NCBI GenBank assembly: GCA_022826005.1
Contig: JAJDVT010000053.1
Coordinates: forward strand, 1 to 57,742
Length of the DNA stretch: 57,742 bases
Source: Gemmatimonadota bacterium
GTDB lineage: Bacteria > Gemmatimonadota > Gemmatimonadetes > Longimicrobiales > Gaopeijiaceae
Direction of reading: 5' to 3'
Part shown: piece by piece, positions 10,360-50,804 of the stretch
Numbering within the stretch: position 1 is the first letter of the stretch
Layout of the letters: the number at the start of each line of letters is the position of its first letter
Program-made: the position numbers and the translations under genes
Notes under the pieces: generated by a model
What the model saw: the letters and a program-made list of their open reading frames with translations, nothing else
Databases searched by the model: none
Told to the model about the DNA's origin: nothing

Positions 10360-10384
10360 CGCCGAGGTTAGCGCCAGGTCGCAG

Positions 10385-11366: not shown

Positions 11367-11387
11367 GATTCTCTCCTTGTTTGAGGT

Positions 11388-11780: not shown

Positions 11781-11880
11781 AGGCGCCGCGCGCGTAGTGC
11801 AGGCGTTGCAGGGGCTCCACAGCCCCAGCCCGAGCGGAAGCTCGGAGCCGGAGCGTACTTCGCAAGGAAGGGTTTGCAGG

Positions 11881-13200
11881 ATGTTCCAACCGATCGTAAG
11901 CCTTACGGCACCCCTTGTTCGCAACCCGGGTCACTCCCGTGCAGACGGACGCCAGCCGCTCGCCATGTCGCTGATGGCCGCGGGGACCATGGCGCTTGCC
12001 TGGACCGGCACGTTGTCGTCGGTCGCCCAGGCCCAGGATCGGCCGCTGACGCCGGACCTGACCGAGGTCTATCGCGCGGGCGGACTCACCGCACCCGACT
12101 GGGCGCAATTCACCAGCCCGTCCCGCATGGGCTTCGATGCCCGGGGCAACCTGTACGTCCTGGACCGTGAGGCTTCGCACGTGGTGGTCATCGATTCCAA
12201 CGGGGACCTGGTGATGACTGTCGGCCGGGAGGGAGAGGGACCGGGAGAATTCCAGGGCCCATCCGACCTCGTGGTCTGGCGCGACGGCCGCTTCGTCGTG
12301 GTCGATCAAATGCACGCCGCGTACCAGCTCTTCGGGCCGAGCGGCGCCCTGGAGCGGTACGTCAGGATGAGTGCCACTGCAAGTGAAGCCGGCCTGGCCG
12401 CAGCGCGGAACAAGCTCAGGGCCGATCCAGTGGGCGGGTCGCTGATCGCCGAAGGACCCGGGCTGGGAGCCATGCTCTTCTCGGTGTTTGCGGAGGAGTT
12501 CGGCGGCGATCAGGTCGATGTCATTGGAGAGATCGGGAAGCTGGAACGGTTGGACCTGAGCGGAGAGGTCGCCGTTGCGGAAGCTATCGCGCGGGCGAGG
12601 GTGATCCCCCCTGCGGACCTTGAGCAGGACCGTCCGTACTTCGCACCCGAAGTGACCTGGGACGTGCTGCCCGACGGCACCATCGGCTACTTCGACTCCA
12701 CGGCCTATGAGATCAATCTTGTCGATCCCGATGGCAGTGCGAAGGGTGTGCTCGAACGCCCGCTGCATCCCGACGCCGTCACTCCACGGATTCGCTCGGC
12801 CGTGATCGAGCACCTGATCGAGCGGTTCGATGAGGAGTCGGCGGAACTGATCGCCGAAATGCCGGCGGAACTCGCGGACGCCTTGCCCGCAGGTGTCATC
12901 GAGGAGGCGCGGGAGGAAATCGGCAATACGGAATTCTACCCCGAGGTCCCGGTGTTGCGGGGACTGCGGGCTACCTGGGACGGTTCCTTCTGGGTTCAGC
13001 GGCGGGGCGATGAGCCGTGGGACGACGAGGGGCCAATCGATGTCCTGGGGCCGGACGGCCGGTACCGCGGAACGCTCGCTGCGGGTGCTCCGGGGATGCC
13101 GATGGCATTCGGACCGGATGGTCTGGTTGCATTCGTGGAGCGAGACGAGCTGGATGTGCCCACGATTGTGGTCAGGAGGTTGCCGGAAGAGGTGCGGTAG
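11881..13200 (+). CDS. 6-bladed beta-propeller secreted protein (BP-6)
   Basis: This 439-residue protein has a signal ending SSVAQAQD (signal peptidase I type, not a lipoprotein). The loop [15 protein letters not shown] is at about residues 114-128, and an extra acidic helical insertion lies at about 270-345 ([20 protein letters not shown]). It closes with [18 protein letters not shown], the textbook last strand of this family. The insertion is shared with the broken BP-10 at 32312, so the two form a subfamily. The ATG at 11881 is preceded by GCAGG. Confidence 0.83.
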
Positions 13201-35979: not shown

Positions 35980-36016
35980 GTAATGTCGAGTTTACTTAAT
36001 GTAATCCGTACTTGTC
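35980..36016. promoter_or_regulatory. Phased operator-like array C: two 16-bp motifs 21 bp apart
   Basis: GTAATGTCGAGTTTAC (35980) and GTAATCCGTACTTGTC (36001) follow the 21-bp step of the other arrays. Unlike them, the array lies at the 3' end of mcrC rather than at a promoter, overlapping the last codons. It may control an antisense or lost gene, or be a leftover boundary of an inserted segment. Confidence 0.4.
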
Positions 36017-37173
36017 ATTCCGCTGCTCGAATCGGTCGTAGGAGGTGCGGTCACGGAATCCTCGGCTGACTCGGCGGGGGCCGTGATCCCAACCGTCTCC
36101 AGCATCTCCTCATGAATCAGCCGCCAATCCCGCCCAAGATCCACCGTCCGCGCCTGAATCCGAAACCCTTCGAGCCGAACGTCGGCCCGTAGCGCCTCAT
36201 CGCCCACCTGCGGATACAGCAGAATCCCCTCGTGCGGCGCTCCGTCGGGCCGGGTGGCCTGACGATTCCTCAAGTACGCGAGCAGCTGGTAGAGGTTGCC
36301 GGAGTGCAGCTTGCCGGAGCCGGTGCCCGAAGCGGGGCCGATGCCGGAGCCGCGCCTCCGCCCGCGCGCGAGCGCGTCCTTGTAGTACTTCGTGTCCAGG
36401 ATGATCCGGCGCTGGGGTGATTCGAGGATCACGTCGGCGTCCATGACGGGGATCCGGTCGCGGTCGGCGTCGGTCTTCCAGCCGGGGTCGGTCCACTGGA
36501 CCCGGCGGCCGCCCGGATTCACGCGGTACGCCCGCTGCTCGCGCTGGTAGAATCCGGTGACGAACTCCTCGAAGAGCGCCCACATGGTCGCCTCGTCCCG
36601 CCGGAAGTCGCGGAAGGTGGTGCGGCCGGTCGTCTCGTCGACCAGCGAGCTTTCGTAGAGGAGCCTGCACACCGAGAGGAGGAAGTGGTAGAGCCGCCGG
36701 TTGCCGCCGAGCTGGAGCTGGCCGAAGGTGTTCCGCTTCAGGCGGGTGCGCGAGATGCCGTCGAGCCTTCGGTAGGCGGAGCGCACGTCGGCGCGGACAC
36801 GGCGGTCGAGTGTGACGCGCCGTCCGAGCAGCCCGTGCAGCGACGAGCGCAGGATGCGGTTCGGGAGGATGTCCACGCTCAGCTCCTCGAAGTCGCACGC
36901 GGCCCGGGCCCGCGCACGGAGCGCACGCTTCGCCGTCTCGCTGACCGCCAGCTTGCCGCGGATGCCGGAGAGGTCCTCGCGGCGTTCGACGTACCCGCGG
37001 TCGATCCCGCGCCGGAAGAGGTGGTTGACGCCGCCGGCGAGCACCTTGCCCAGCAGGTCCTGCACCGTCGAGAGGCCGCCGAGCGTGGCCAGCCGCGTGG
37101 TGTCGCGTTCCTGGACCCGTCCCCAGGCGTAGCAGAGGAGGTAGTAGACGTTGAGGATCGGGATGTTCTTCAC
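35992..37173 (-). CDS. mcrC: McrC-family nuclease subunit of a McrBC system
   Basis: This 393-residue protein starts MKNIPILNVYYLLCYAWGRV, the standard McrC opening. It carries the PD-(D/E)xK nuclease site as MDADVILESPQRRIILDTKY, where the Asp and the DxK supply metal and catalytic residues. The usual N-terminal block (YVERREDLSGIRGKLAVSET) is present. McrC cuts DNA when the McrB GTPase ring stalls. The gene starts 12 bp after mcrB stops, as one operon. The length is normal for the family. Confidence 0.9.
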   Translation of the reverse strand: MKNIPILNVYYLLCYAWGRVQERDTTRLATLGGLSTVQDLLGKVLAGGVNHLFRRGIDRGYVERREDLSGIRGKLAVSETAKRALRARARAACDFEELSVDILPNRILRSSLHGLLGRRVTLDRRVRADVRSAYRRLDGISRTRLKRNTFGQLQLGGNRRLYHFLLSVCRLLYESSLVDETTGRTTFRDFRRDEATMWALFEEFVTGFYQREQRAYRVNPGGRRVQWTDPGWKTDADRDRIPVMDADVILESPQRRIILDTKYYKDALARGRRRGSGIGPASGTGSGKLHSGNLYQLLAYLRNRQATRPDGAPHEGILLYPQVGDEALRADVRLEGFRIQARTVDLGRDWRLIHEEMLETVGITAPAESAEDSVTAPPTTDSSSGMTSTDYIK

Positions 37174-37185: not shown

Positions 37186-38481
37186 TCAGGCGTCGGCGGT
37201 GAGCCTGGCCACTTCGTTGCCGACATCCTCCGGCGAGTCGAACCAGTACTCGCGAAGCAGCGGCGCGATCTGGGTCTCGACGATGTGGGTGTACCAGGCG
37301 TCGGAGGGCTCCTCGTCGTCGTCGTCGCGGGGCACGAAGTAGCTGTGGCCGATCCGGAAACCGGGGCCGAGTTCCCTGTCGCCGCTGATCGTCTCGTTGA
37401 GCTTGCCGATGCGGTCGGAGATGCGGCGGGCGAGGGAGGGGTCGGCGCCCTTGCCCGTGAGGTGCTTTTCGAACGCCTCCCGGCCGAAGTCCGTTCCGAA
37501 GGCGGGCTGCAGCGACTCGAAGGCGAATCGCCGGCGGAGCGCGTAGTCGACCAGGGCCAGCGACCGGTCGGCGGTGTTCATCATGCCGAGGATGTGGACG
37601 TTCCCGGGGACGTGGAAGCGGTCGTCCGCGGGGTCCGCATAGGTCAGCGCGACGGCGTAGTCCTCGCTGCGCTTGTCGGCCTCGATCAGCATGAGAAGCT
37701 CGCCGAAGATGCGCGACAGGTTGCCCCGGTTGATCTCGTCGATGATGAAGACGTGGGGGGTGTCCGGGTTGGCGCGCGCGCGTTCGCAGAAGCGGTGGAA
37801 GACGCCGGACTTGAGGGTGAAACCGCCGTCGTCGGTGGGGCGGTACCCCTGCACGAAGTCCTCGTAGGCGTAGGACTGGTGGAACTGGACCATCTCGATG
37901 GGGTTGTTGTCCTCGTGGCCGATGAGGCACCAGGCGAGGCGGCGGGCGATGAAGGTCTTGCCGGTGCCGGGGGGGCCCTGGAGGATGAGGTTCTTGCGGG
38001 TTGTGAGGGAGGTGAGGAGGCGGTTGAAGTGGGTGGGGGGGAGGAAGAGGTCGTGGTGGGCGTCCTTGATGGTGTAGGACGGTTCCGGCGGCTTGGAGTT
38101 GTTGAACGACCAGAGGATTTCGACCGGGGTCGTGTCCCTTGTTTCCGCGGGCGTGGCCTCGCCGGCGTAGGTGAACGGAGCTCTCTTGGCCGCGCGCCAG
38201 AAGACATGAATCCGCCGTCCTGGCTCCAGCAGCTGCTTCACGCTTGTCCAGCCGATATGGGAGCGAGTCTGGTGGTACCAGCGCAGACGCTTCCCTTCCC
38301 AACGATTGTCGTAGACGTGACCCGTACTAGCGTCCGTGCCGACGGTGGCGAAGATGAAGAAGACCCCGTCGTGCTTGAGAACGCCCGTGTCCCACTTGCC
38401 GCCCTTGCCTGCGGCTGACGGGACGACCATCTGCTGGATCTCCGGACGCGTGTATTTCCTGCCGGGGACGAACCTGGCCAA
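37186..38481 (-). CDS. mcrB: McrB-family GTPase with DUF3427-like N-terminal recognition domain
   Basis: In this 431-residue protein the AAA+ GTPase has Walker A GPPGTGKT (169-176), FIIDEINRGNLSRIFGEL (Walker B) and MNTADRSLALVDYALRRRF, the GTPase signature and arginine finger that mark McrB. Residues 8-100 (KYTRPEIQQMV ... TGHVYDNRWEGKRLRWYHQT ... RRIHVFWR) resemble the DUF3427 domain found on defence helicases, instead of the methyl-cytosine reader of E. coli McrB. The mark recognised is therefore unknown. It is the first gene of the mcrBC operon; 38482-38681 upstream is unassigned. Confidence 0.87.
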   Translation of the reverse strand: MARFVPGRKYTRPEIQQMVVPSAAGKGGKWDTGVLKHDGVFFIFATVGTDASTGHVYDNRWEGKRLRWYHQTRSHIGWTSVKQLLEPGRRIHVFWRAAKRAPFTYAGEATPAETRDTTPVEILWSFNNSKPPEPSYTIKDAHHDLFLPPTHFNRLLTSLTTRKNLILQGPPGTGKTFIARRLAWCLIGHEDNNPIEMVQFHQSYAYEDFVQGYRPTDDGGFTLKSGVFHRFCERARANPDTPHVFIIDEINRGNLSRIFGELLMLIEADKRSEDYAVALTYADPADDRFHVPGNVHILGMMNTADRSLALVDYALRRRFAFESLQPAFGTDFGREAFEKHLTGKGADPSLARRISDRIGKLNETISGDRELGPGFRIGHSYFVPRDDDDEEPSDAWYTHIVETQIAPLLREYWFDSPEDVGNEVARLTADA

Positions 38482-38681: not shown

Positions 38682-39206
38682 TCAGTAACCCCAGGGAGCG
38701 GGGAAGCCCGGATCCACTGGACCGATCAGGTCGTCTGCAACGTCCGTCTCGCCCGGGTTCCGGCATATCCATACCCGACACTTGGGCGAGTCGGCGCCGG
38801 GAGCCGGCCGAAACACGAAGATCGCCAGCGCGCCGGTGTTTTCGGGATCCTGCAGCGGGGACAAGGAGCCGAGGCCGGTGATGCGGACCTCAGGGCGTGG
38901 CGCCCCGAATAGGCCCGCCCCGGTATGCGGAACGCCCCGGACGCGGTTTTCCCGCACTCCGTGCGAGTCGATCTCGATGTCGAATTCGACGCTCGGTGCC
39001 CCGATGTCCTTCGCAAGCGACGGGAACGCGGGCTTGAGCAGGTCTCTCGGAACGCAGGGACCAGATCGACGGGTCTCGGTGGCCGAGGTCTCGGTGCCGG
39101 ATAGGAACTTGGCGTGCCAGACCCAGCTGGCCCCGATCCATTTCGCTATCCAATCTCTGAGCTGGTCGGTTTCGATGGGGCTGTATTGTTGGGTTGCAGC
39201 TTGCAT
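38682..39206 (-). CDS. EcoRII-N (B3-like) DNA-binding protein without nuclease domain
   Basis: This 174-residue protein starting at 39206 (MQAATQQYSPIETDQLRDWI) has the features of the EcoRII N-terminal effector domain: WVWHAKFLSGTETSATETRR (recognition arm), then RPEVRITGLGSLSPLQDPEN and TGALAIFVFRP. EcoRII binds CCWGG with this fold and cuts with a C-terminal domain of about 200 residues. Here the frame ends at FPAPWGY and no REase-like sequence follows in any frame. It may be a truncated enzyme or a stand-alone reader or regulator. It diverges from vsr across array D. Confidence 0.68.
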   Translation of the reverse strand: MQAATQQYSPIETDQLRDWIAKWIGASWVWHAKFLSGTETSATETRRSGPCVPRDLLKPAFPSLAKDIGAPSVEFDIEIDSHGVRENRVRGVPHTGAGLFGAPRPEVRITGLGSLSPLQDPENTGALAIFVFRPAPGADSPKCRVWICRNPGETDVADDLIGPVDPGFPAPWGY

Positions 39207-39317
39207 CGCGTGGCTCCGGTTTGCGGTCTGTATTAACCTGGTGCCTGCGGGGGGGAGCGCAACCGGTTCGCGACATTCGCCCTCGCGCGGGGTGACTGCG
39301 GATTGCCTGGTTAAGAT

Positions 39318-39354
39318 GTAATGTAGACACGACATAATGTAACCTCCAGTTTAC
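39318..39354. promoter_or_regulatory. Phased operator-like array D between the EcoRII-N-like gene and vsr
   Basis: GTAATGTAGACACGAC (39318) and GTAACCTCCAGTTTAC (39339) are 21 bp apart. The second matches E1 (45678) closely: both read GTAA-x-CTC-xx-G-x-TTAC. They lie 112 bp upstream of the EcoRII-N-like start and 89 bp upstream of vsr, a divergent promoter region. Confidence 0.55.
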
Positions 39355-39442: not shown

Positions 39443-39865
39443 ATGACCGACATCTTCGAGCGCAGGAAGCGAAGCGAAATCATGTCCCGGATCCGGGGCC
39501 GTGACACCGAGCCGGAGATGATCGTTCGCAGGATCGCCCACGGGCTCGGGTTCCGCTTTCGCCTCCACCGCAGGGACCTTCCCGGCTCCCCCGATCTCGT
39601 GTTTCCTAGGCACCGGGCCGTGATCATGGTCCACGGGTGTTTCTGGCATCGGCACCCAGGCTGCAAGTACGCCTCAAGCCCCAAGACGCGCGTGCGATAC
39701 TGGCAGGACAAGTTCGAGGGCAATGTGGTCCGTGATCGACGGAATGAGGCGGCCCTGCACGACCTTGGATGGCGAGTGATGGTGATCTGGGAATGTGAGA
39801 CGAGGGATCGCGAGGCGGTAGCTGAGCGGATCGTGGGGTTCCTGCGGGGTACGGATGTCGGTTAA
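39443..39865 (+). CDS. vsr: Very-short-patch mismatch endonuclease
   Basis: This 140-residue protein has all Vsr hallmarks: MSRIRGRDTEPEMIVRRIAH, LPGSPDLVFPRHRAVIMVHG (catalytic Asp), FWHRHPGCKYASSPKTRVRY (zinc and catalytic His) and LGWRVMVIWECE. Vsr nicks beside the T of T:G mismatches that arise when 5-methylcytosine deaminates, so it belongs functionally with the Dcm-type methyltransferase at 44455. It ends overlapping the last codon of the receiver-domain gene on the other strand by 4 bases. The length is normal. Confidence 0.92.
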   Translation: MTDIFERRKRSEIMSRIRGRDTEPEMIVRRIAHGLGFRFRLHRRDLPGSPDLVFPRHRAVIMVHGCFWHRHPGCKYASSPKTRVRYWQDKFEGNVVRDRRNEAALHDLGWRVMVIWECETRDREAVAERIVGFLRGTDVG

Positions 39866-41487
39866 TTCCCGCGCTTGGCGACGCTCTGCGACCGCCTGAT
39901 CCACTCCGACTGGTTGAGCGGGATCCGGGACATTCTCAGCGCGATCGCCTGAGTTATCCACTGGGCGGATTCTGCCTTCAGCTCTCCTACCCAGCGGTAT
40001 TCTCCGCCGCTGGCGTCCTCGAAGGTGAAGGGCTGATCGGTACCATTGCGGCGTGCCAAAACGCACTGCCGGCCAGAGTCGGGTACGAAGTCCACTGAAC
40101 GCCACTGCGACGGATTCAAGGATATGGTCATACGCCGGTCTTGGTTGTGTTCGACCGGCACCACGATTTGGAGTCTGTTGGGCTTGGCGTCCGTGAGGGG
40201 GACGAACAGAAACCTAGTCTTGTCGGTCAATCGAACGCTATCGCATCGCGGCGTCACGCACAGGAGGGGGGCTGCTTTATTGCCTTCGGTCGGGACTACG
40301 ATTGTGCCCATCGACAGCTCGCGCCACGTGGCGGGAGGCACCTGGCGAAGGCTCATGGCGGCGGCGAGGCGGCGATCAAGCTCGCGACTGTTTTCCGCGC
40401 CGCCCGAGAATCCATGGGATAGAAGATCGTATTCGCTACCGCCCTTTTTCAGAGGACCGGGTCCCGCATCGATTCCACCCGTGAGCATGGCGAGCACCTC
40501 GTCATGCGACATGGGCTTGCCCGGCGCACCCTCTTTGCGCGGAGCAAGCTCGATGCCACCATCTCCGAATCGCCCTTTGAGCCAATGCTCGATCGCCTCG
40601 ATTCCCGCCGGACTCCGCTGGCCGACTGCGTCGTCCATGATACCGCGAAGCTCGCTCGCGATCTGTTCCACGATGTGCCGCTCGGAGTCGGGCGGTTGAG
40701 GCAGGCAGGCGCGGTGGACAAGGAAAGCAGGGTCGAGGTCGTGTCCGAAGCACTCCAGCAACCGATGGACATTATCCCGAGCGGCGCCCAGCGCAGTTAG
40801 GACCACGCTTGGCAGGAGACCCTCGACCATGTCGGCAAAATCGGCGATTAGCAGGTCGGCCAACGCGTCCTCGTCGACTTCGATGTTGGGCTCGACAACT
40901 CCAGAACGGGGCTTACCGTACACGACAATCCGGCAAGCGCGGAAGTCGATGGCTTGGCCGCTGCCATCGCCGGAGGCTACCGCCGGGTCGCGTCCGTTGA
41001 GGCCGTTCAGGCACTCCACGATCTCCTCCCGAATCCTCTCGTGGTCGGAATCGCCGGTATAGAACGCGAGCAAGCGAAGTCGGTGCGGCTCATCTTCCGT
41101 GAGGATCCGCTTCAACAACGGTAGCGCGTTCACGTCGTTCGCCCGGTTCAGCCACCAGTCCAGAATCACGATGTCCGCCCGCGCCACGGCTTTGGCGAGC
41201 GCCTCGTGATCGTCTTGCTCTTCCCGAGGGGACAGCACGCCACAGACCATGGCATGGCGGGCGAACGACCATGTTATCGGCTCGACGTTGAGCGGCTGGG
41301 GTGCACGAGCTTGCGACTCCGGCACCGCTGGTGAGCTCCGCGTCTGCGCGCCTCGCCCCACCGACGTCAGATCGCCGTGGACAGGAGGATACCCGCTGAC
41401 GGAGAGTTCGTCGTCGACCACCACCGCCGTCAGGAGGAAACGCCGGGCGATGCCTCGACAGTGCTGCGCAAAGGCGTCAGTCGACAT
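39862..41487 (-). CDS. Receiver-domain protein partner of the dual-GHKL kinase
   Basis: This 541-residue protein begins with a response-regulator-like fold: AVVVDDELSV (acidic pair Asp25-Asp26) and ADIVILDWWLNR with the phospho-acceptor Asp110. An insertion of about 50 residues lies between the first strand and the rest. Residues 150-541 have no recognised output domain; they contain FRACRIVVYGKPRSGVVEPN and a C-terminal all-beta part (RLTDKTRFLFVPLTDAKPNR). There is no DNA-binding motif, so the output may be protein contact or catalysis. It overlaps the kinase gene by 11 bases, so both are co-translated. Confidence 0.78.
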   Translation of the reverse strand: MSTDAFAQHCRGIARRFLLTAVVVDDELSVSGYPPVHGDLTSVGRGAQTRSSPAVPESQARAPQPLNVEPITWSFARHAMVCGVLSPREEQDDHEALAKAVARADIVILDWWLNRANDVNALPLLKRILTEDEPHRLRLLAFYTGDSDHERIREEIVECLNGLNGRDPAVASGDGSGQAIDFRACRIVVYGKPRSGVVEPNIEVDEDALADLLIADFADMVEGLLPSVVLTALGAARDNVHRLLECFGHDLDPAFLVHRACLPQPPDSERHIVEQIASELRGIMDDAVGQRSPAGIEAIEHWLKGRFGDGGIELAPRKEGAPGKPMSHDEVLAMLTGGIDAGPGPLKKGGSEYDLLSHGFSGGAENSRELDRRLAAAMSLRQVPPATWRELSMGTIVVPTEGNKAAPLLCVTPRCDSVRLTDKTRFLFVPLTDAKPNRLQIVVPVEHNQDRRMTISLNPSQWRSVDFVPDSGRQCVLARRNGTDQPFTFEDASGGEYRWVGELKAESAQWITQAIALRMSRIPLNQSEWIRRSQSVAKRGN

Positions 41488-44458
41488 CGGCTTCGTCGTT
41501 CTGCTGCTTGATCGGCGTGATCAGGAAGGTGGCGCCCTGCTCCGGGCCACTCGTTTCGAGGATCAGGTCATAGCCCACCTCGCGTAGTGTTGCCCTGGAG
41601 ATATGCAGGCCCATGCCGCGGCCCCCCGGCTTCCGGGTGAACCCGATTTCGAAGATGTCGTCCCGATCACGGTCGTGGATCCCCGGCCCCGAGTCCGAGA
41701 TGCGGAACCCATTTCCGAAGGCGTCGAGCTGGATTCGGCGTTTGAGGGTCTCGTTCTGGCCGGCGAGCCAATAGATCGCGTTGTCCACGAGATTGACGAA
41801 CACGGGGTAGAAGGAAGACGGATAGCCCGTGACCGTGGCGTTGGTGAATGGGTCGGTCTTGGTCAGTTCGACGTTGTGTCGGGCCAGGCGCTGGCCGAAC
41901 AGGTTGGTCAGGAACTCGTGGATCTCCCAGCCGTGGATGACCACCGCCTTTCGGTAGAGCCTCCTCTGCAGCGGGGTGAAGAGGGTGAGGTAACCGTCGA
42001 GATGGTCGAAACTGCCGCGGATGCCTTGATAGAGTGACATCAGTTCCTGGTTCACATCGGCCCAGGCTTTGAGACTGCGAAGCCCCGAGCGTACGGAACG
42101 GATGGCGGCTCCGAATTCGTGGCTTATGATCTCGATCGCCATCCCGAGCTGAGCAAGCTGAAGGTCGGCGGCCGCCTGTTCCCGTAATGTGACGTTGCTC
42201 TGCTCGACCGCTTCGAGTTGATCGACCAGGGAGGAATCGCTCTTCAGGTCGACGGCCGCCAGCTGGGAGCGTAGGCCGTCGAGTCTGCGGTTGGCATTCT
42301 CCAGGGACTCTCGGATCGGCGCCTCCAGGGCCGCGCGCTCTTCGATCAGCTGCTGGTCGTCCATACCCGTAAGGTCACGCCGAGCGAAATCGGCCATCGT
42401 GCCCCGAATCATCGACTCCACGTCGCGCACACATCGGCCCGCGATCGCTCGGGTGCTCGCCAGAATCTCTTCGGCCGCCTCCTCCACGTCCTGGCGACCA
42501 GCCTTCGTTTCCCGCCGCGCGGTTGTTCCGAGCTCCTTGAGAGTCGATTCCATCCTGTCTCTTGCGCTGACGTCAACCCCCGCTTTGGTCACTTCCTCGG
42601 TCACAATGCTCTCGATCGTGTCACTGATGTCGCGGACGTTTGCGACGAGGTCCTCGTACGCCTCCTGATAGTCGCCCCACTCCTTCCGCAGGGCCCGGCT
42701 CATGCCGATGCGGGGCTTGGAAACCTGATAGTCGGACTCGACATCCCTGAGGCTTCTTCTCGCTTCTCGCTCAATATCGATGATCCGCCGAGCAGCCCTT
42801 GCTCGATCCGTATCGCGGCCTGCTTCCCTTACTCGCTCCTCGATCTCCAAACCCAATACCACGACTCCATCAAGCGGCTTCTCCGTCTCCATCCGCTCGA
42901 AGAACGTGGCCAGGTCCTTCCGGAACTTGGTGCGCTTAGCGGTCACCTGCTTGGCGCGGGCCCGCAGATGTCGCTCGGTCTCTTCCATCTCCCGCTTGCG
43001 GCTCGCGAATCGGTCGCCGTGAACGCCCTCCTCCCGGAAGAAGTCGGCGGCGACCTGCACAAGGAAGCTCTTCAGGATGCCCCGGAGATCACGGTAGGCT
43101 TTGTTCTCGCGAAAACCCTCGCGACCAGCCTTCTCGCGAAGCTTCCCGTTGTTGACGGAGTCGACTTCAACGACACCGAACATCTGCCGGTAGGAGAAGT
43201 AGTAGTACGAAGCGCTTTTCGTACGGCGGAGTTCGATTTCCAGCCAATCGTAGTCCGTGTTGCCGTACGGTTGAATGCGTACTCCGTCCCGATAGAGATA
43301 CAGCCCACCGATCTTTCTCGTCTTCGCAAGCACGCGGCCATGCTCTTCTGGCGGCAGCGTCGAATGTCTTGCCAATCCCTCGACCGCGGCGAACCTGATG
43401 TCGAACGGACCGCAACCCGTCTTCTTGCCCCTTCCGCCGCTCCAGTGGATCACGTGGTCATCCACAAGCTCGCCGTAGATGGAGACGTTCCCCTTGAATT
43501 GGCCGTACTCGTCGAATCGTCCCCAGATCCGGTGATCGGCATTCTCGTACTCGTAGCTGGTGAAGAACTTGCTGTCTCCGATGAGGTCTTCGCAGGTACC
43601 GTCCGTTCCGTGGTCCCTGAAGGCGGTGCGGATGACCGGTGTCCCGCCTTCCGCAAATGATGGAGCGGTGAACCCCAGGAGAGCCTTTTGCAGCGGTGGC
43701 GCCACATCCGAGTCGGGATCCCCGGCGATGTCCTGTTCCAGATTCGGGGATGCGGGGAGAAGGTAGAAGTGGGTACCGTGGCCATCGCCGAGGAGCGTCG
43801 GTTTGCCCAGGTACTCCGCCAGTTCCAGCGGATCGACCTTGAATTGGGCAAGTTCGGTCTCCATTTCCTTCCACGCGTTGCCATCCACGCGCTCGCGAAG
43901 ATGCTCGTTCCGGCCCTGAAAGTCGCGGACCATGTCTGCCACTTTCTCGCCGTCGGGCAGTGTGCCCCCCGGGAATGTCCAAAGCGGAATCCGGATGTCC
44001 TGAAGGTTCAGCTCGTGGTACCGGAAGACCCGCCAGTTCAGGAAGGCCGCCGTCACATCGGAAAGGACGCCGTCACGCGAGGCGCGAGTGAGCACCAGCA
44101 ATTGGGGAGCGATCGTCGCGATGGCGAGGCGGCCGATGCCTTTCTCCCCCAGCACAGGCCGGGCGCGCTTCTCGGACTTTGGGAGCCGGCTCTCGGCGCG
44201 CTTTCGCTTCACACTGGTCTCGGTCGCGATCGTCAGCCACCGGTCGACGAATTCGTCCCTTTCCATTCCAAAACCGTCATCCCGGAGAACGAACAGACCG
44301 TCTCGCCTGTAATAGTCCACTTCCACCCGTTCGGCGTACGCGTCGTGCGCGTTCTTGAAGAGCTCGCTGATGGCGGTGGGTATACCGGCGATCTGCTGCC
44401 GCCCCAGCATGTCCAGCGTCCGGGCCCGAGTCTTGAAGGTTACGTCCATTGCCGTCAA
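41477..44458 (-). CDS. Protein with two GHKL ATPase modules: MutL/MORC/Hsp90-like and histidine-kinase-like
   Basis: The 993 residues begin with a full GHKL ATPase: ELFKNAHDAYAE (Asn36, N-box), RDDGFGM (Asp61, G1) and GEKGIGRLA (104-112, G2). This is the MutL/Hsp90/MORC pattern, with a lid and an S5-like extension. A coiled coil of about 300 residues (480-765) follows. A histidine-kinase end then comes: EIISHEFGAAIRSVR (His780) and a second ATPase with VNLVDNAIYWL (889-898), DSGPGI (922-927) and GGRGMGLHIS (945 on). Two ATP sites plus an H-box and the adjacent receiver protein suggest a phosphorelay. The start overlaps the methyltransferase stop by 4 bases. Confidence 0.85.
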   Translation of the reverse strand: MTAMDVTFKTRARTLDMLGRQQIAGIPTAISELFKNAHDAYAERVEVDYYRRDGLFVLRDDGFGMERDEFVDRWLTIATETSVKRKRAESRLPKSEKRARPVLGEKGIGRLAIATIAPQLLVLTRASRDGVLSDVTAAFLNWRVFRYHELNLQDIRIPLWTFPGGTLPDGEKVADMVRDFQGRNEHLRERVDGNAWKEMETELAQFKVDPLELAEYLGKPTLLGDGHGTHFYLLPASPNLEQDIAGDPDSDVAPPLQKALLGFTAPSFAEGGTPVIRTAFRDHGTDGTCEDLIGDSKFFTSYEYENADHRIWGRFDEYGQFKGNVSIYGELVDDHVIHWSGGRGKKTGCGPFDIRFAAVEGLARHSTLPPEEHGRVLAKTRKIGGLYLYRDGVRIQPYGNTDYDWLEIELRRTKSASYYYFSYRQMFGVVEVDSVNNGKLREKAGREGFRENKAYRDLRGILKSFLVQVAADFFREEGVHGDRFASRKREMEETERHLRARAKQVTAKRTKFRKDLATFFERMETEKPLDGVVVLGLEIEERVREAGRDTDRARAARRIIDIEREARRSLRDVESDYQVSKPRIGMSRALRKEWGDYQEAYEDLVANVRDISDTIESIVTEEVTKAGVDVSARDRMESTLKELGTTARRETKAGRQDVEEAAEEILASTRAIAGRCVRDVESMIRGTMADFARRDLTGMDDQQLIEERAALEAPIRESLENANRRLDGLRSQLAAVDLKSDSSLVDQLEAVEQSNVTLREQAAADLQLAQLGMAIEIISHEFGAAIRSVRSGLRSLKAWADVNQELMSLYQGIRGSFDHLDGYLTLFTPLQRRLYRKAVVIHGWEIHEFLTNLFGQRLARHNVELTKTDPFTNATVTGYPSSFYPVFVNLVDNAIYWLAGQNETLKRRIQLDAFGNGFRISDSGPGIHDRDRDDIFEIGFTRKPGGRGMGLHISRATLREVGYDLILETSGPEQGATFLITPIKQQNDEADVD

Positions 44459-45564
44459 GCGAGACCCGCCTCGGCCAGGTGTCTGGCAACATGGTGCCCA
44501 ACGACAGTCGTCAATCGCACCGGCACGGCGTTGCCGATTTGCCGAGCCCTGGAGGTCGTGCAGCCCGAAAAACGGAAGTCCATAGGGAACGTCTGAAGGC
44601 AGGCGGCTTCACGGACGCTGATCGCACGATCCTGCTCGGGGTGGCCGAAGCGGCCGTTGGAATAGCTGATGCATCGGGTGGTCAGCCCGGAGGCTGGCCG
44701 GTCCCAGGACATGCGGCCGTAGACGTCACTGTACCCCGTTGCCCCCGCGTGGCAGGTGAGCTGGAGGTCCTCCGACCAATCCCGGTTGCCGCCGCCCTCG
44801 GGAGTCGCGCGGATGCGCTTCAGGTTGAGCGCGGAGAGGCGGGCGGCGCGGTGGTCGGGTATTTCGGGATCCACTTCACCGGCGGCAAGCTCCGGGAGAT
44901 CCCCGATCCAGTCGCGAACGGTGGCGAAGTCGGGGTTGTCGGTTCCCGGGCCGTGGGTTTCGTCAGGGAGATCCAGTCGGCCATGTCGACTCGCGAGCAG
45001 AAGGAACCTCCGGCGGCCCTGAGGAACTCCGTACCGCTTGAGGGACACGGAGCCGTGTGCCGGGTCCGCATACCCGGCTTGCTCCAATCCCCGAAGGAAG
45101 CTGCTGAGCGGCTCGGAGTCGGGGCACACATTCTGAATCCCCGGAACGTTCTCCACAAACACGATGTCCGGCTCACACCTCCGTATGAGACGGAGGAACT
45201 CAAGGAGCAGCGGCACCCGGTCGTCCTCGCCCGGCTTGGGGCGGATGGTGTTCTGTTTGGTGAATGGCTGGCACGGCGCACATCCACAGAACAGGATGGG
45301 GTGGGGCCGTTCCTCGTCGACGAGCGTGCGCACGGAATCTTCGTCCACCTGCCGAATGTCCTTGGCCACGAAGGATGTCGACGGGAAGTTCCGCTTGAAG
45401 CTCTGCTCGGCGTCGGCGTCCCAGTCGAGAGCGAACACCACGTCCATCCCGGCCTCCTGGAAGCCGCGGCTTGCCCCGCCGCAACCGGAGAAGAAGTCGA
45501 ACACCTTCGCTGTCCGGCAGGGGACGGTGGCGTAGTTCGTTCCGGAATCGCGGTCTGGGTTCAT
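44455..45564 (-). CDS. DNA (cytosine-5-)-methyltransferase, Dcm-like
   Basis: This 369-residue protein has all m5C motifs: VFDFFSGCGGASRGF (I, SAM binding), GCAPCQPFTKQ (IV, catalytic Cys98), VFVENVPGIQN (VI), YGVPQGRRRFLLLASR (VIII) and ARQIGNAVPV (X). It transfers a methyl group to C5 of cytosine at a site that cannot be read from the sequence. It heads an overlapping three-gene operon with the dual-GHKL and receiver proteins. Vsr and an EcoRII-N-like protein nearby suggest a Dcm/EcoRII-like sequence (CCWGG), but that is inference. Array E lies upstream, from 45678. Confidence 0.93.
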   Translation of the reverse strand: MNPDRDSGTNYATVPCRTAKVFDFFSGCGGASRGFQEAGMDVVFALDWDADAEQSFKRNFPSTSFVAKDIRQVDEDSVRTLVDEERPHPILFCGCAPCQPFTKQNTIRPKPGEDDRVPLLLEFLRLIRRCEPDIVFVENVPGIQNVCPDSEPLSSFLRGLEQAGYADPAHGSVSLKRYGVPQGRRRFLLLASRHGRLDLPDETHGPGTDNPDFATVRDWIGDLPELAAGEVDPEIPDHRAARLSALNLKRIRATPEGGGNRDWSEDLQLTCHAGATGYSDVYGRMSWDRPASGLTTRCISYSNGRFGHPEQDRAISVREAACLQTFPMDFRFSGCTTSRARQIGNAVPVRLTTVVGHHVARHLAEAGLA

Positions 45565-45677: not shown

Positions 45678-45714
45678 GTAAGCTCTGGCTTACGAAGTGT
45701 CAAGTATAGTTTAC
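45678..45714. promoter_or_regulatory. Phased operator-like array E between the m5C methyltransferase and membrane genes
   Basis: GTAAGCTCTGGCTTAC (45678) is a perfect inverted repeat (GTAAGC/GCTTAC). GTCAAGTATAGTTTAC (45699) follows at 21 bp. They lie 114 bp upstream of the methyltransferase and 103 bp upstream of the GTG of the first membrane gene, a divergent promoter. Confidence 0.6.
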
Positions 45715-45816
45715 GATGTGAGGGTGGATGCTTGCCGCGCGTCTGCGGAACTGCCATGGTCTTGGCACCCGCAGCCACGCTGCCCCTGTTCTCTTGAGAG
45801 TTGCCGGAGACTATCC

Positions 45817-46674
45817 GTGAACCTTCCCGCACTCACCACGGTTGACCGGTTCCTTCAGCCCCTCGTCGCCACCACACTCCTGCTGGGCCTTCTCATCCTC
45901 TGGGACGGCACCTACGATCAGTCCTGCGTGGCCCTCGCGTCTCCGGCGCTCGTGTACTTCGCGATACTGTACGGGCTCTTGGAATACCGCCTGGAACGCA
46001 AGCGCTTCGCCGTCGACTACTACCTGGATCGTGAGTCCGCTTGGCGGAGGCGGTTGCGGGGGACCTGGGTGCCGGTGTTGGTCAGCATGACCGCGGCGCT
46101 GCCACTGGCCGTCTTTCTAGCCGTCTTCGTGGCCCTCTCGCGGCCCACTGACTGGCTGTTTCTGGCGGCCGCGGCCGTGGCAGCGCCTTTCCTGTTCGAG
46201 GGCAGCTCCCGGTGGCCCGGCCGTCACTTCAGGCGTGACGCCGACGCCAGCGGCCGGGCCGTTACGGTCGCGGACATTCTCAGTGCGCGGCTTGCGGGCT
46301 GGGTCCTCCTGGCGCTGGTTGCGGTCGCGTACGTCTACTTCAACTACATGGTAATCGGAGGTCCCCCGTACATCTATCCGGATTCTCTCCAGCTGACGGT
46401 GGAGGCCTTTATGGCGGGCGTCCACTCGGCGTGCCCGGTGGTGGACGGCGGTCTGCGTGCGGCGGCCGGGATCGAAGGGATCGCCTGGTACGCTGTGACG
46501 GGCACAGCGATGGCTCCGTGGATGCCCGACGGGATCAGGGTGGTCGTGTGGATCGGATTCTTCCTGAACGTAGCGTTGGCGATCACTGGGTTCGTTCGCG
46601 GGCTCGAAGGCTCCATCCTGGTGGCGAAGCGAATCGTCGATCGGAATCGCAAGGAGGCGACAGATGTCGAGTAG
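45817..46674 (+). CDS. Polytopic membrane protein of the defence island
   Basis: The GTG at 45817 follows CCGGAGA. The 285-residue product has about six membrane helices (VATTLLLGLLILWDG, LVSMTAALPLAVFLAVFVAL, LFLAAAAVAAPFLFEG, LAGWVLLALVAVAYVYFNYM and two more near the end). Charged loops (EYRLERKRFAVDYYLDRESA) would face the cytoplasm. No family is recognised. It overlaps the next gene by 11 bases and diverges from the methyltransferase, so the pair is probably an effector or sensor of the same island. Confidence 0.68.
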   Translation: MNLPALTTVDRFLQPLVATTLLLGLLILWDGTYDQSCVALASPALVYFAILYGLLEYRLERKRFAVDYYLDRESAWRRRLRGTWVPVLVSMTAALPLAVFLAVFVALSRPTDWLFLAAAAVAAPFLFEGSSRWPGRHFRRDADASGRAVTVADILSARLAGWVLLALVAVAYVYFNYMVIGGPPYIYPDSLQLTVEAFMAGVHSACPVVDGGLRAAAGIEGIAWYAVTGTAMAPWMPDGIRVVVWIGFFLNVALAITGFVRGLEGSILVAKRIVDRNRKEATDVE

Positions 46675-47566
46675 GGACACGGAGAACGGCGAAGCGGGCC
46701 GAGAAACTCCCAGGAACGGACGGAAGGCATGGGCGGGGAGGACGATTCTCGCACTCGTCCCGCTGGCCATCCTGGCCGCGACCGGCCATCACATGCTGCA
46801 CCAGCGGTTGGAGGAGCAGTTCAGGCGGTTTGGGCAGGAGCGTATCCGAGCCCCGTTGCCGGAAGAAGCTCGGCGTCTGATCGACAGAGGTGTCGAAGAT
46901 GCCTTCGCTCCGGTCTACGACAGGATCCCGGAGTTCCTGGATTGGCATTACTCGTTCTTCGGCCAGTATACCGAGTTGGGCCTGATGCTGGTGGGGCGAC
47001 TGGAGGGAGCGATCGAATCGCGACTCCTCGGTGGGCTGGAAGAGCGCATCAGCGCAACCGGTGAGGATGTCGGGCGCGTGATGCAGGAAGAAATGCTTGC
47101 CGAACTTGAGCGGTGGTTTGATCGTGACATCGCATCGCTCCCACCGGGTGTGAGAACTACGTACGAGCGCATGCTGGAACCGGTGTTGGAGGACGCCAGG
47201 AGGCGATTCACAGTCTCCGTCGGTCCGACCGCCGTTGGGGCCGCCGTGGCCGGGGTCGGTGCGTCGATCGGGGTGAGGGCGGTCGCAACGGGGATTGCCG
47301 AGAGACTGGTGGGGGGTGCAGCGGTCCGGTCCGGGGTTTCCGCACTGGGTCGTGCGGCGGGGCTAATCGTGGCTGCCGGTGCAGCGGTGGGTATCGACTT
47401 CGCGCTTCGGGAGTTGGACGAGATGTTCCACCGGGAAGAACTCGAACGGGAATTGACAGCATTGGTGGACGAGCAGAAGGAGCGGGTGAGGGTCGCACTG
47501 CTGGGCGTCGTGTACGACGTCAAAGCCGAGGCGCTGGGTAACTTCATTCCCGCTCAGTTACGCTGA
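46664..47566 (+). CDS. Membrane-associated helical protein paired with the polytopic protein
   Basis: The 300-residue product has one N-terminal membrane helix (TILALVPLAILAATGHHMLH), a helical middle (LEEQFRRFGQERIRAPLPEE, VMQEEMLAELERWFDRDIAS) and a Gly/Ala-rich hydrophobic segment at about 185-245 (AAVAGVGASIGVRAVATGIA). That segment resembles glycine-zipper membrane insertion regions of toxins and pore formers, followed by a cytoplasmic helix. No known family is assigned. It overlaps the upstream membrane gene and ends 8 bp before the right hairpin repeat. Confidence 0.65.
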   Translation: MSSRDTENGEAGRETPRNGRKAWAGRTILALVPLAILAATGHHMLHQRLEEQFRRFGQERIRAPLPEEARRLIDRGVEDAFAPVYDRIPEFLDWHYSFFGQYTELGLMLVGRLEGAIESRLLGGLEERISATGEDVGRVMQEEMLAELERWFDRDIASLPPGVRTTYERMLEPVLEDARRRFTVSVGPTAVGAAVAGVGASIGVRAVATGIAERLVGGAAVRSGVSALGRAAGLIVAAGAAVGIDFALRELDEMFHREELERELTALVDEQKERVRVALLGVVYDVKAEALGNFIPAQLR

Positions 47567-47639: not shown

Positions 47640-49239
47640 TCACGAAAAGTGGTGGTCGCGGGCCCGCTGGATTTCCTCGCACGGCTGTTCGTCGGCGATG
47701 AGATATAGCCACTCCTTGGCTCGCGTCATCGCCACGTACAGGCGGTCGAGGTTCAGCAGGCGCTCCTCTTGGTCTTCCTCGGTGGGCGGCGCTGGCTGGT
47801 TTCCGGGGATTGGCATCGCCAGCTGGCCCGATCTTCTGTCGTGCGTGTCGATGGGGAATCGGGATTCTCCCAGGCGCGGGATGAAGACGGCTCGGAATTC
47901 CAAGCCCTTGGCTCGGTCGAAGGTGCCTATGCGGACCCCGTCTTCAAGCGGACCGTCGCGCAGGTCCTTCAGGTTGACGCACGGGACGGTCCTGTCCTTC
48001 AACGCCGCCACCAGTTGCTCGGCGTCCCGGTTCCGCAGGACGAGCACGCCGATTTCGTTGTGCGTGAAGCCCTCGTTCCCGACGAGGTCGTGAATCCGGT
48101 CCAGAATCGCTCCGGTTTCCTTGCCCTGCGCAACGATCATGACGGGTCGATCGCCTTCGTCGCCCTCGAAACGGGACGGCATCCACCGATCCGTCATCGT
48201 TGGCGTCCCTGCTGACGACCACTTCTCCGCGGACGGCGCGAGCGGCCTGGAATATCCTTCGCGTGTTCCGGAAGTTGACGTTGAGGGTATCGGAATGGCC
48301 GGTGAAGTTGAGGTTGGCCCATGCCGGACGGAAACCACCGGGGTAAATGCGCTGCGCCGCGTCGTCCAGCATCAGGATGCTGTCCTTTCTCAGTCTGGCT
48401 CGCGGCCCGCCCGCGACGAGCGCGCGGACGAGCTGGATTCCGACCAGCGTCAGATCCTGGGCCTCGTCCACGACCGCCGCGCGGTATCCGGGCACGGTCT
48501 CCGCCTGCGCCCGGTTGCGGGCTTCCACGAGGCGGTCGGCGAAATCGACGGTGTCCCGTTGTGCCATCTCGCGATCCCAGGCTTCGCGCAGATTCCAGCA
48601 GATCTCCCGGTCCGGCCGCTTGAACGCCCGTCTCCGGCCGAGCCGTTCGAACCGGCCGGTATCCAGGTATTCCTCCTTCCGCGCATCCCGGCCCTTGATG
48701 ATGCGCCTGACCTCTTCCTTCAGGTAGTCGCGGTCCAGCCTCTGTCTTGCCTCCGCCGGCACTGCGCTGAGGTAGGCCGCTTCGAACGCCGCGTCGACAT
48801 CGTCGAGTTTGAGAGGGCGTGAATCGAACCTGTAGGCGAGCCTGTCGATGTTCGCGAAGTGGACGTTATCCGGCGCGTCGGGGAACCGCCGGAACAGCGC
48901 CTCCATGTGGCCGGAGAGAGACCGGCTGAAGGTCGTTGCTAGGATTCTCTCGCCGGGATAACGGAGCCCGAGCACGGCGACCCGATGGAGCGCGACGACG
49001 GTCTTCCCGGTACCGGCCGCGCCTCTGATTCGGCCCAGCCCCGCGTGGTAGTGGCGGTTTACGAGCCTCCGCTGCTGCGCCGGCAGGTACAGCGTCCACT
49101 CCTCGAAGTCGCCCGGGGGTACGGCCGCGTCGCCCTTGGCCGTAGACCCCGGGGGAGCCCAGACCGCGCCATACGCGTCGAGGTCAGTGTAGTGGCCTTG
49201 GCGGCGGGCCCAGTCGTACATGGGGTCGTGGTGGCCCAT
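47640..49239 (-). pseudogene. UvrD/PcrA-like superfamily 1 helicase with frameshift
   Basis: The upstream frame (start 49239) has AGLGRIRGAAGTGKTVVALH (Walker A), LATTFSRSLSGHMEALFRRF and AAVVDEAQDLTLVGIQLVRA (Walker B), ending near DANDDGSVDAVPFRG. The continuation in another frame reads SRFEGDEGDRPVMIVAQGKE, IGTFDRAKGLEFRAVFIPRL and LYVAMTRAKEWLYL, the C-terminal helicase motifs. The shift is near 48185 and needs one base. The joined protein would be about 530 residues, the size of stand-alone defence-type UvrD helicases. Bases 49240-49445 hold no other gene. Confidence 0.8.
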
Positions 49240-49445
49240 GTTCAGGAGTCCGACGCGGTGTGGAGGGGTGGCGTCCGGGGTGTCAAGTTCTCATGCTCCC
49301 GGTGCATCTTCTGTTCTGGTGCGCAGGATTCGCAAGTGACGTCGGTGCTTGAGGCGATCGGCAGTAGTCGATAGTTTGCAACTTGGGACATCGTGGCAAT
49401 CGACTCCACACGCACTTCCAACCGAGATAAGGATGGCTTCAGGCC

Positions 49446-50804
49446 ATGGCGAAAGCCGTCTTGACCACTAAGGTCGATCCGTCATACGATGATCTGCCCG
49501 CGGATCGGTACCACTTCCCGCGCACGTACCTCAACACCGTGCGGAAGGCACTTGGCGACTGGATCGTCTACTATGAGCCTCGCCGTATCAGTGCTGACCT
49601 GTCGGGCCACGGAGGGCGTCAAGCATACTTCGCGACGGCCCGGATCGCGAGCGTCAGGCCTGATCCGCACAAAAACGGCCACTACTACGCGGACATAGCG
49701 GACTATCACCAATTCGACCGTCCTGTCCCTTTCCGCGAACGCGGCTACTACTACGAGAGCAGGCTACAGAAGGACGATGGCTCGACGAACAAGGGCATGT
49801 TTGGCCGCTCAGTCAGGCTCTTGGAGGAGTCTGAATACCAAATGATCCTTGCTGCCGGGTTTAGGACTGGGAGCAAGAGACGAAAGCGAATTGGAATTAG
49901 TACACAGCCTTCTCCCCGGACCGAAGGGGGCGTTTGTTCGCTATCGGTTCCGAACGCACTCACCGTGGGTGGGTCACCTTCCCTTGCTTCGCTTCCAATC
50001 ACTGACGAACAACGCTCAGTGATCCTGGAACAGGTAGATGCTCATCTTCCCGGCACAGAGATCTGGCTCTACCCAGCTGCACTGTTCCTAGAAACGCAAT
50101 CAGAACCTCATGTGACGCTGGTCGCGCTTACATCCGCAGAGGAATACCAAGGCGTGTCAACCCTACGTCGCACCATTTTCGACCATTCGCCACCGCTTGG
50201 TGTATCCGTCTTCGCGTGGCAGGAGATTCCAAGAGAACTCCAAGCGAAGGTCCAGAACCGGCACCGCGTACTGCGCCGGGCAGTTGGTCCTCCTGGGCCC
50301 ATGGGCCGACCAAAAGACACTCGCCATCGTCGCACGCAGCTAGTGAGCCCCACCGCATCATCCCCTTGGCCACACTATTTTGGACCCACCGATCGCCCGC
50401 CACTTGTTCCTGCAGGAGTCCTGCGAGCACTTTGGCTTTCAGAATGCCCGACCGACGAAGTGAACGCAGTAGCAATCAATCTCGGAGAACGCAATCGAAA
50501 TATCGTGTTGTGGCGTCTCGGAGCCATGGGACAACCAATTCCAACCTATGCATCCATTGCCAACCAGTTCGGCATTTCGCGTGCAAGAATTGGTCAGATA
50601 ATCGCTCGTTTTCTCGAAGAAGTAGCAGAATGGGGAATTCGGCTGCCATGGTCCGAGTACTTACTTGTTCGAATCCAGGACATGACCGGTCGCCAATTCG
50701 ATCTCCAGGTTCCTGCGGATCAGGGACAGATCGAGTGTGGTGCCGGCCAGGGTCTCCCCTACCACTTTTCTTTGGCCGATATGGAAGTTGGACGGGAAGC
50801 TTGA
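49446..50804 (+). CDS. PUA/EVE-like domain protein with unusual C-terminus ending in a sigma-4-like HTH
   Basis: Residues 1-130 (KVDPSYDDLPADRYHFPRTY, then RQAYFATARIASVRPDPHKN and YYESRLQKDDGSTNKGMFGR) match the PUA-like N-terminal domain usually fused to HNH nucleases. No HNH follows here. Residues 190-285 (VDAHLPGTEIWLYPAALFLE ... FAWQEIPRELQAKVQNR) look like a degraded nucleotidyltransferase (MNT) fold without its catalytic GSRA. Residues 372-400 (TYASIANQFGISRARIGQII) form a sigma-70 region-4-like HTH. The DNA is AT-richer than its neighbours. It may be a chimera that found a new role, or a decaying defence gene. Confidence 0.6.
   Translation: MAKAVLTTKVDPSYDDLPADRYHFPRTYLNTVRKALGDWIVYYEPRRISADLSGHGGRQAYFATARIASVRPDPHKNGHYYADIADYHQFDRPVPFRERGYYYESRLQKDDGSTNKGMFGRSVRLLEESEYQMILAAGFRTGSKRRKRIGISTQPSPRTEGGVCSLSVPNALTVGGSPSLASLPITDEQRSVILEQVDAHLPGTEIWLYPAALFLETQSEPHVTLVALTSAEEYQGVSTLRRTIFDHSPPLGVSVFAWQEIPRELQAKVQNRHRVLRRAVGPPGPMGRPKDTRHRRTQLVSPTASSPWPHYFGPTDRPPLVPAGVLRALWLSECPTDEVNAVAINLGERNRNIVLWRLGAMGQPIPTYASIANQFGISRARIGQIIARFLEEVAEWGIRLPWSEYLLVRIQDMTGRQFDLQVPADQGQIECGAGQGLPYHFSLADMEVGREA

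Follow-up and report, generated by a model that had tools for sequence, protein, structure and literature searches.

The locus described here lies in a contig of a Gemmatimonadota bacterium; the whole stretch analyzed, 57,742 nucleotides long, is referred to as the window. At the core of the locus are three genes on the same strand, encoding a C5-cytosine DNA methyltransferase (MTase), a histidine kinase (HK)-like protein and a receiver protein (Table 1). The reading frames of these proteins and of Vsr are as described in an earlier note on this DNA. The note also gave gene overlaps of 4 and 11 bases. The kinase and receiver genes do overlap by 11 bases, but the 4-base overlap of the MTase and kinase genes holds only with a TTG start of the latter. 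In three relatives (L018, L019 and L023), the kinase start is the counterpart of the ATG nine bases downstream, leaving a 5-base gap to the MTase gene. The 3′ ends of the Vsr and receiver genes overlap by 4 bases.

Table 1. Genes and predicted domains of the locus, in window coordinates
Feature	Position	Strand	Details
C5-cytosine DNA methyltransferase gene	44455..45564	-	369 aa
HK-like protein gene	41477..44458	-	TTG start gives 993 aa; ATG at 44449, the probable start, gives 990 aa
MutL/MORC-like GHKL ATPase module, HATPase_c_3	44072..44377, residues 28-129	-	Pfam 3e-14; N36, D60, G104-G109
HEF_HK phospho-acceptor domain	41951..42151, residues 770-836	-	PF19191 1e-27; H780
C-terminal histidine-kinase ATPase domain	41513..41815, residues 882-982	-	HATPase_c 2e-16; N889, N893, G924, G946, G948, G950
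Receiver protein gene	39862..41487	-	541 aa
Response_reg_2 receiver domain	40903..41439, residues 17-195	-	PF19192 1e-27; D25/D26, D105, D110, T144, K192
Predicted MazF/CcdB-fold barrel	39925..40323, residues ~389-521	-	conserved G394, C410, C415, D416, R419, R521
Vsr mismatch endonuclease gene	39443..39865	+	convergent to operon
EcoRII-N protein gene	38682..39335	-	accessory module
McrB-like GTPase gene	37186..38481	-	accessory module
McrC nuclease subunit gene	35992..37173	-	accessory module

The MTase matches the Pfam DNA_methylase family (2e-47), and its relatives in PDB are of the DNMT1, HaeIII and HhaI type. Its catalytic C98 and ENV motif are intact, with C98 kept in 83 of 83 relatives. 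Vsr was likewise recognized by both Pfam (3e-28) and NCBIfam (6e-40). The methylase would mark self DNA, and Vsr would mend m5C deamination at the sites of the methylase.

Just beyond Vsr, on the operon strand, we observed a module that the earlier note had overlooked: its statement that there is no nuclease is correct for the three-gene operon and does not extend to the genes next to it. The first product of the module (217 aa; Pfam EcoRII-N, 2e-26) matches only residues 7–159 of the 404 in EcoRII and thus represents the N-terminal (DNA-recognition) domain without the catalytic one. It is followed by adjacent genes for McrB and McrC, in the order known from McrBC type IV restriction. The McrB-like GTPase (1e-98 to the McrB model and 7e-97 to the E. 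coli McrB chain) carries an MNTAD (NxxD) motif. Its residues 3–125 resemble DUF3427 at 7e-6, with 25.9 bits against the Pfam cut-off of 27.7, while the McrB of the relative L018 exceeds this cut-off (4e-7, 30.0 bits). In SauUSI, the end that reads m5C is DUF3427/SRA (PMC3874153, PMC7913695). McrC matches Pfam McrBC (3e-23) and the McrC model at 6e-89, below the cut-off of that model; a D...LDTK motif was spotted by eye. This type IV-like module, present in the window genome and two relatives, probably cuts methylated foreign DNA.

A GHKL–histidine kinase protein and its receiver partner

As far as its sequence tells, the kinase-like protein has a MutL/MORC-like GHKL ATPase at its input end and a complete histidine-kinase core at its output end. 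It scores 96.6 bits against PF19191 (cut-off 24.1), and the receiver protein scores 97.4 bits against PF19192 (cut-off 27). Bellieny-Rabelo et al. (2021; PMC8011034) described, from sequence, the corresponding HEF_HK/Response_reg_2 proteins as a two-component-like pair tied to restriction-modification (R-M). By these matches, the window cassette belongs to their family, in which a soluble two-component-like system is linked with a C5 MTase. The combination of GHKL ATPase and phosphorelay is already in that paper, and the link to paraMORC ATPases is in PMC2292703. No functional test of a cassette of this type was found in the literature searched.

Residue conservation was counted across 83–85 relatives from many phyla. 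N36, G104–G109, H780 and N889 are invariant or nearly so, far beyond chance. N36 is kept in 84 of 84 relatives, as is H780, and the phospho-acceptor D110 in 85 of 85; the earlier proposal had depended on the conservation of the latter two. All these residues had been named correctly. What needs revision is the aspartate of the GHKL DxGxG motif, which is D60 (84 of 84) and not D61 (Asp in 64 relatives, Asn in 20), and the second G-box of the kinase, which consists of G946, G948 and G950. Domain matches and conserved residues together confirm that a MutL/MORC-like GHKL site is joined to a phosphorelay. The receiver domain has an intact acidic pocket and a fold that aligns with PhoP and KdpE receivers at a Z-score of 11.

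Gene neighborhoods of relatives

Of 331 relatives found, 80 were taken into the survey. Linked genes were counted at 63 loci, and MTase, receiver and Vsr at the 59 loci with enough flank. The receiver gene is adjacent to the kinase gene in all 59 of the latter, a C5 MTase is linked in 55 and Vsr is present in 20, so that homologs apart from the methyltransferase are not the rule. Sequence identities of kinase and receiver correlate at 0.93, those of kinase and methylase at 0.65. At 32 of the 63 loci, no gene outside the three-gene core is linked to it. It follows that the core needs an effector of its own and that the output probably lies inside it.

About half of the loci do carry some linked gene, and some of these genes encode nucleases, which could be the real effectors. 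The nucleases vary: HNH_2 in L018 and L019, HNH in L068, McrB with DUF2357-PDDEXK_7 in L057 and EcoRII-N/McrBC in the window. A search for one nuclease partner common to the loci showed wide recurrence of Vsr alone (26 loci); the clusters that follow are mixed and occur in 4–6 loci. The kinase–receiver pair might be the regulatory gate of an ordinary, exchangeable R-M system, as put forward in PMC8011034. It would sense DNA or nucleotide state and control the methylase and any nuclease nearby (HNH_2, HNH, McrBC, AAA type or EcoRII type), either in their activity or in their expression, with the C-terminal domain of the receiver protein only docking partners. The varying nuclease neighbors and the looser coupling of the MTase to the pair agree with this explanation. 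However, it does not fit well with the loci that have no other linked gene, with Vsr as the only widespread extra gene or with a receiver protein in which no DNA-binding output domain can be recognized. We regard it as possible but doubtful.

Within one genus the cassette is patchy, and it occurs in viral/prophage contigs and plasmids, a pattern as for defense genes. This distribution argues against a non-defense role, in which the relay would act as an epigenetic regulator, tuning the activity of the methylase and, through it, the expression of host genes. The Vsr and nuclease neighbors speak against such a role as well, and so does the MTase, which evolves more loosely than the kinase–receiver pair. 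Even though the MTase is nearly always linked, and three adjacent genes of one such locus are reported to be up-regulated during plant infection (PMC8011034), we consider the epigenetic role quite improbable.

The divergent membrane pair, which the earlier note had offered as a possible effector, was rejected: it has no Pfam or NCBIfam match and was seen in only one other fetched genome (L010 and L018 being the same contig).

Predicted fold of the receiver C-terminal domain

The other effector candidate of the earlier note was the C-terminal part of the receiver protein. Profile searches with it, which the note had suggested, gave no credible link to any known family in Pfam, NCBIfam, PADLOC or PDB sequences, and the entire receiver protein had no match in the PADLOC library. 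PemK (PF02452) is absent among the Pfam matches listed for this region, and 18 PemK/MazF proteins of related genomes, compared with it by profile, did not match either (hhalign probability 0.5%).

A different picture emerged at the level of structure. The barrel is covered by AlphaFold models with pLDDT of 89 and 92. In Foldseek, the top 23 matches have a MazF-type fold, all with E-values above 0.001. After realignment with VIA-align, the best 50 PDB entries are MazF-type, CcdB or Kid, with a Z-score of up to 9.6, which is moderate, and an rmsd of 2.6 over 97 residues. L017, a receiver from a plasmid collection, was left out of the structure alignment. Three fold searches and a realignment all show this likeness, which suggests that the modeled C-terminus takes the MazF/CcdB/Kid toxin fold. 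Together with the half of relatives lacking any other linked gene, this prediction strengthens the case for the receiver C-terminus as the effector. A link between a receiver and MazF in the R-M context was not found in the literature searched.

The active site is a different matter. The comparison used the catalytic Arg and Thr of MazF; with positions placed by strand order, there is no conserved Arg at 399–409 and no conserved Thr at 430–434. This favors the gate explanation. The C-terminal WGI motif of CcdB was not seen at the corresponding end of the receiver protein sequences, and no antitoxin gene was recognized at the locus. C415 and D416 of the barrel are invariant among the aligned relatives and R419 is mostly kept.

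The latter residues could form a new catalytic site (C-D-x-x-R) if the GHKL-kinase protein itself acts on DNA in the manner of BbrUII/HgiDII-type enzymes, clamping unmethylated sites and nicking or remodeling DNA with the receiver as its subunit. Its N-terminus is indeed similar to the model of these restriction enzymes (NF050001; residues 13–126, 7e-21), and a three-gene unit containing an MTase resembles an R-M system. However, the likeness is limited to the first 126 residues, at 74 bits against a cut-off of 550, and no nuclease motif was recognized in the kinase-like or receiver protein using Pfam, PADLOC and NCBIfam. Moreover, the kinase core is fully conserved, although it would be superfluous in a pure restriction enzyme. 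Direct action on DNA thus seems unlikely.

The best explanation, which we favor tentatively, is a DNA-sensing phosphorelay that controls an internal toxin-fold effector. While the gene identities are solid at the sequence level, we infer the mechanism, including DNA-state sensing by the kinase-like protein and phosphotransfer from H780 to D110. The N-terminal GHKL module would clamp DNA and read its marked or foreign state, and ATP-driven closure of the module would trigger the transfer. Phosphorylation of D110 would free the toxin-fold domain for a defense or growth-arrest response. A more specific version, in which a MutL/MORC-clamp kinase phosphorylates a receiver with a MazF/CcdB-fold toxin domain that has a new C-D-x-x-R active site, providing methylation-keyed abortive infection across phyla, is rather doubtful. 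With a toxin-fold output, what was a "possible regulator of R-M" raises a concrete question that is cheap to answer, namely, whether the C-terminal domain is toxic and whether D110 controls it. If both hold, a self-contained three-gene system of many phyla would join two-component signaling with the marks of DNA methylation and with a toxin as output.

Comparison with known systems

MazF, CcdB and Kid toxins share the predicted fold of the receiver C-terminal domain. In contrast to them, the window barrel is fused to a receiver, shows no sequence similarity and no conservation of the MazF catalytic residues, and has no recognized antitoxin gene. Detocs is a phosphorelay anti-phage system with a non-transcriptional defense output. 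It is similar to the window system only in its way of working and is not known to have a methylase or GHKL-clamp sensor.

Going by the literature, the GHKL N-terminus is related to paraMORC (PMC2292703) and to VcSduA, which restricts phage (PMC12137116). The BbrUII/HgiDII family shares the N-terminal GHKL domain, but the window protein falls far short of the cut-off for this family, and its remainder is a histidine kinase. The paraMORC ATPases (Iyer et al. 2008, PMC2292703) likewise have an N-terminal GHKL ATPase and C5 MTase, Vsr and restriction genes as neighbors, and a GHKL ATPase with conserved motifs inside an R-M gene neighborhood, as expected for paraMORC, is present in the window. However, the partners of paraMORC1–5 are helicase, nuclease and TIR proteins with no phosphorelay, and a receiver is not mentioned in that study.

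The CoCoNuT census (PMC11090510) reports McrB/McrC beside methylase and two-component genes, as in the window. There, the two-component link is given for McrBs with the NxD motif, with details deferred to a later paper, whereas the window McrB has NxxD.

The closest system is that of PMC8011034, with which the window shares both domains, the main architecture (HATPase_c_3, HEF_HK and HATPase_c) and the linkage to C5 MTase and Vsr. In that paper, the receiver protein has no other known domain, and the MazF/CcdB fold is not mentioned. New here are the toxin-fold prediction, the loci without extra genes, the kinase–receiver identity correlation and the neighboring module of EcoRII-N, DUF3427-McrB and McrC, which the window has in addition.

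Architecture and conservation of the cassette

The cassette consists of three minus-strand genes, encoding a C5-cytosine methylase, a kinase-like protein and a receiver protein, with a Vsr gene convergent to them. The earlier note, which had described an operon of a methylase, a dual-GHKL ATPase/histidine kinase and a receiver, located all four reading frames correctly; its observations are confirmed with minor corrections and its interpretation is supported in part. The catalytic residues it named hold, except that alignment places the DxGxG aspartate of the GHKL site at D60, not D61. Its 4-base overlap between the methylase and kinase genes exists only if translation begins at a TTG, which is not the start in relatives; three related loci (L018, L019 and L023) have a 5-base gap.

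Features of the cassette and its neighbourhood in the window
Feature	Coordinates	Strand	Matches and remarks
C5-cytosine methylase	44455-45564	-	Pfam
Kinase-like protein, 993 aa	41477-44458	-	Pfam HATPase_c_3 28-129, HEF_HK 770-836, HATPase_c 882-982
Receiver protein, 541 aa	39862-41487	-	Pfam Response_reg_2 17-195
Vsr	39443-39865	+	Clear match (Pfam, NCBIfam)
EcoRII-N protein	38682-39335	-	Pfam
McrB	37186-38481	-
McrC	35992-37173	-	Profile matches
Membrane pair	45697-46674, 46664-47566	+	Divergent, overlapping
UvrD/GajB-like helicase	47640-49278	-	Two frames, split near 48170
452-aa ORF	49446-50804	+	Weak sigma-70 region 4 match

Across alignments of 83-85 proteins each, the following residues are invariant: in the kinase, N36, D60, G104, G107, G109, H780, N889, N893, G924, G946, G948 and G950; in the receiver, D25, D105 and D110; in the methylase, C98. 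Receiver D26 and T144 are nearly so. It follows that selection acts on both GHKL sites, the phospho-acceptor histidine, the receiver pocket and the methylase. Across pairs of relatives, kinase identities correlate with receiver identities at 0.93 and with methylase identities at 0.65; shared descent contributes to both values, which carry no correction for it. The contrast indicates that kinase and receiver travel together, whereas the methylase is swapped or follows a different evolutionary course.

Distribution of relatives

Of the 23 genomes listed for the window's genus, 5 have the receiver, a patchy distribution. An alignment of the kinase, run against one genome per species (84,980 genomes), returned 331 relatives. 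The best 80 of the 331 were fetched and come, by record title, from Gemmatimonadota, Rhodothermales, Proteobacteria, Bacteroidota, Actinobacteria, Nitrospira, Synechococcus and others; we added eight relatives from viral or prophage contigs and a few from plasmids. Ranking the loci by similarity to the kinase means that divergent members of the family are under-represented. Among the 59 loci with enough flank, the kinase is accompanied by a receiver in all 59, a C5 methylase in 55 and Vsr in 20. Here and in the neighbour counts below, individual numbers may be off because ORF calling was mechanical.

Flanks of 1.5 kb or more on both sides are available for 63 loci, and 32 of these have no further same-strand gene of at least 140 aa within 300 bp; annotated examples are plasmids of Pantoea dispersa and Pseudoalteromonas. 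With half of the loci carrying no further gene, the three-gene core should be self-sufficient. The remaining loci have mixed neighbours, including HNH_2, HNH, AAA_15 and McrBC-like genes. In five Bacteroidota loci (L053, L054, L058, L063 and L074), an AAA-type ATPase of ~600 aa, a recurrent alternative partner, directly follows the receiver gene, often with Vsr next. In an order-level relative (L012, 7326-11661), a kinase-receiver pair stands without a methylase: the N-terminal GHKL module is missing from the kinase-like protein, and the surroundings contain no C5 methylase. In L023 the kinase-like gene (10001-12970) is broken into three frames; methylase and receiver are intact.

The earlier note's statement that the operon holds no nuclease is right for the three genes alone. 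Beyond Vsr, and on the same strand as the operon, follow genes for a protein with the EcoRII N-terminal domain but not the EcoRII catalytic part (Pfam; comparison with EcoRII), for McrB and for McrC. The McrB GTPase matches E. coli McrB at 7e-97, and its N-terminus is DUF3427-like (7e-6; 4e-7 for the L018 relative). DUF3427 occurs at the SauUSI C-terminus, with a proposed role in substrate recognition (PMC3874153), and the SauUSI structure has an SRA-fold m5C reader at its C-terminal end (PMC7913695). EcoRII-N, DUF3427-like McrB and McrC beside Vsr thus place a nuclease in the neighbourhood, probably a modification-dependent one. Next to a C5 methylase, such an McrBC has either to disregard the mark that this methylase sets or to be kept under control. 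The module is accessory, not core: it is common to the window and two other Gemmatimonadota MAG loci (L018 and L020), while in L057 and L083 McrB-like genes come after the cassette.

On the other flank, the helicase gene has either decayed to a pseudogene by frameshift or been misassembled; its L018 homologue, in the same neighbourhood, is intact (698 aa). The first 140-159 residues of the 452-aa ORF are ~70% identical to HNH_2 endonucleases whose genes directly adjoin the cassette in L018 (7823-8725) and L019 (7544-8443), which suggests a mobile N-terminal domain joined to different C-termini. The membrane pair, already noticed earlier, has no Pfam or NCBIfam match and recurs among the fetched loci only in L018 (same contig as L010), at the same position.

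A predicted toxin-like fold at the receiver C-terminus

An AlphaFold2 model from 72 aligned receivers reached pLDDT 89 and pTM 0.86, with a receiver domain resembling PhoP/KdpE-type receivers (Z about 11). The first seven Foldseek matches of the full model are MazF chains. When only the last 170 residues are folded (pLDDT 92), the first 23 are MazF chains (best E 0.018, prob 1.00). After realigning, every one of the 50 best entries is a MazF-type, CcdB or Kid toxin, with a top Z of 9.6 and an rmsd of 2.6 over 97/105 residues; in a viral library the top match is a PemK/MazF toxin (TM 0.70 by target). A MazF/CcdB-type toxin fold is therefore probable rather than proven, as a Z of this size is moderate and no Foldseek E-value falls below 0.001. 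Sequence comparisons do not support it: a set of 18 PemK/MazF proteins gave an hhalign probability of 0.5%, the Pfam matches listed for this region include no PemK, and none was seen among PDB sequences. Arg and Thr are catalytic in MazF; the Arg is conserved in the PemK/MazF proteins compared, and strand-order comparison found no conserved counterpart of either in the receiver barrel, where G394, C410, C415, D416, R419 and R521 are conserved instead. As modelled, the barrel is toxin-like in fold, and its activity, if any, is different or lost.

Proposed mechanism and known systems

We propose that the methylase would mark self DNA and that the MutL/MORC-like GHKL end may sense DNA state, by analogy with its paraMORC, MutL and VcSduA relatives (PMC2292703, PMC12137116). 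Closure would lead to autophosphorylation of H780 and transfer to D110, as the active sites present would allow, and the toxin-fold domain would presumably be released or activated. Three rival readings are the pair as a gate for exchangeable nucleases, the GHKL part as a restriction engine like BbrUII/HgiDII, and the cassette as an epigenetic regulator. The fold-based hypothesis for the output is quickly testable; we found no functional test of the family in the open literature searched.

The cassette belongs to a known family; it carries an accessory module in addition, and a fold-based hypothesis is offered for its output. Bellieny-Rabelo et al. 2021 (PMC8011034) defined both domains of the pair, found the two genes linked in 91.6% of 644 regions, with R-M genes, C5 methylases and Vsr enriched nearby, and the receiver protein without other known domain. 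They linked the pair to paraMORC ATPases (Iyer et al. 2008, PMC2292703) and proposed a two-component system controlling R-M. The CoCoNuT paper likewise reports two-component genes adjoining methylase-associated McrB systems (PMC11090510). The window cassette carries the same two domains as this HEF_HK/Response_reg_2 family (PMC8011034).
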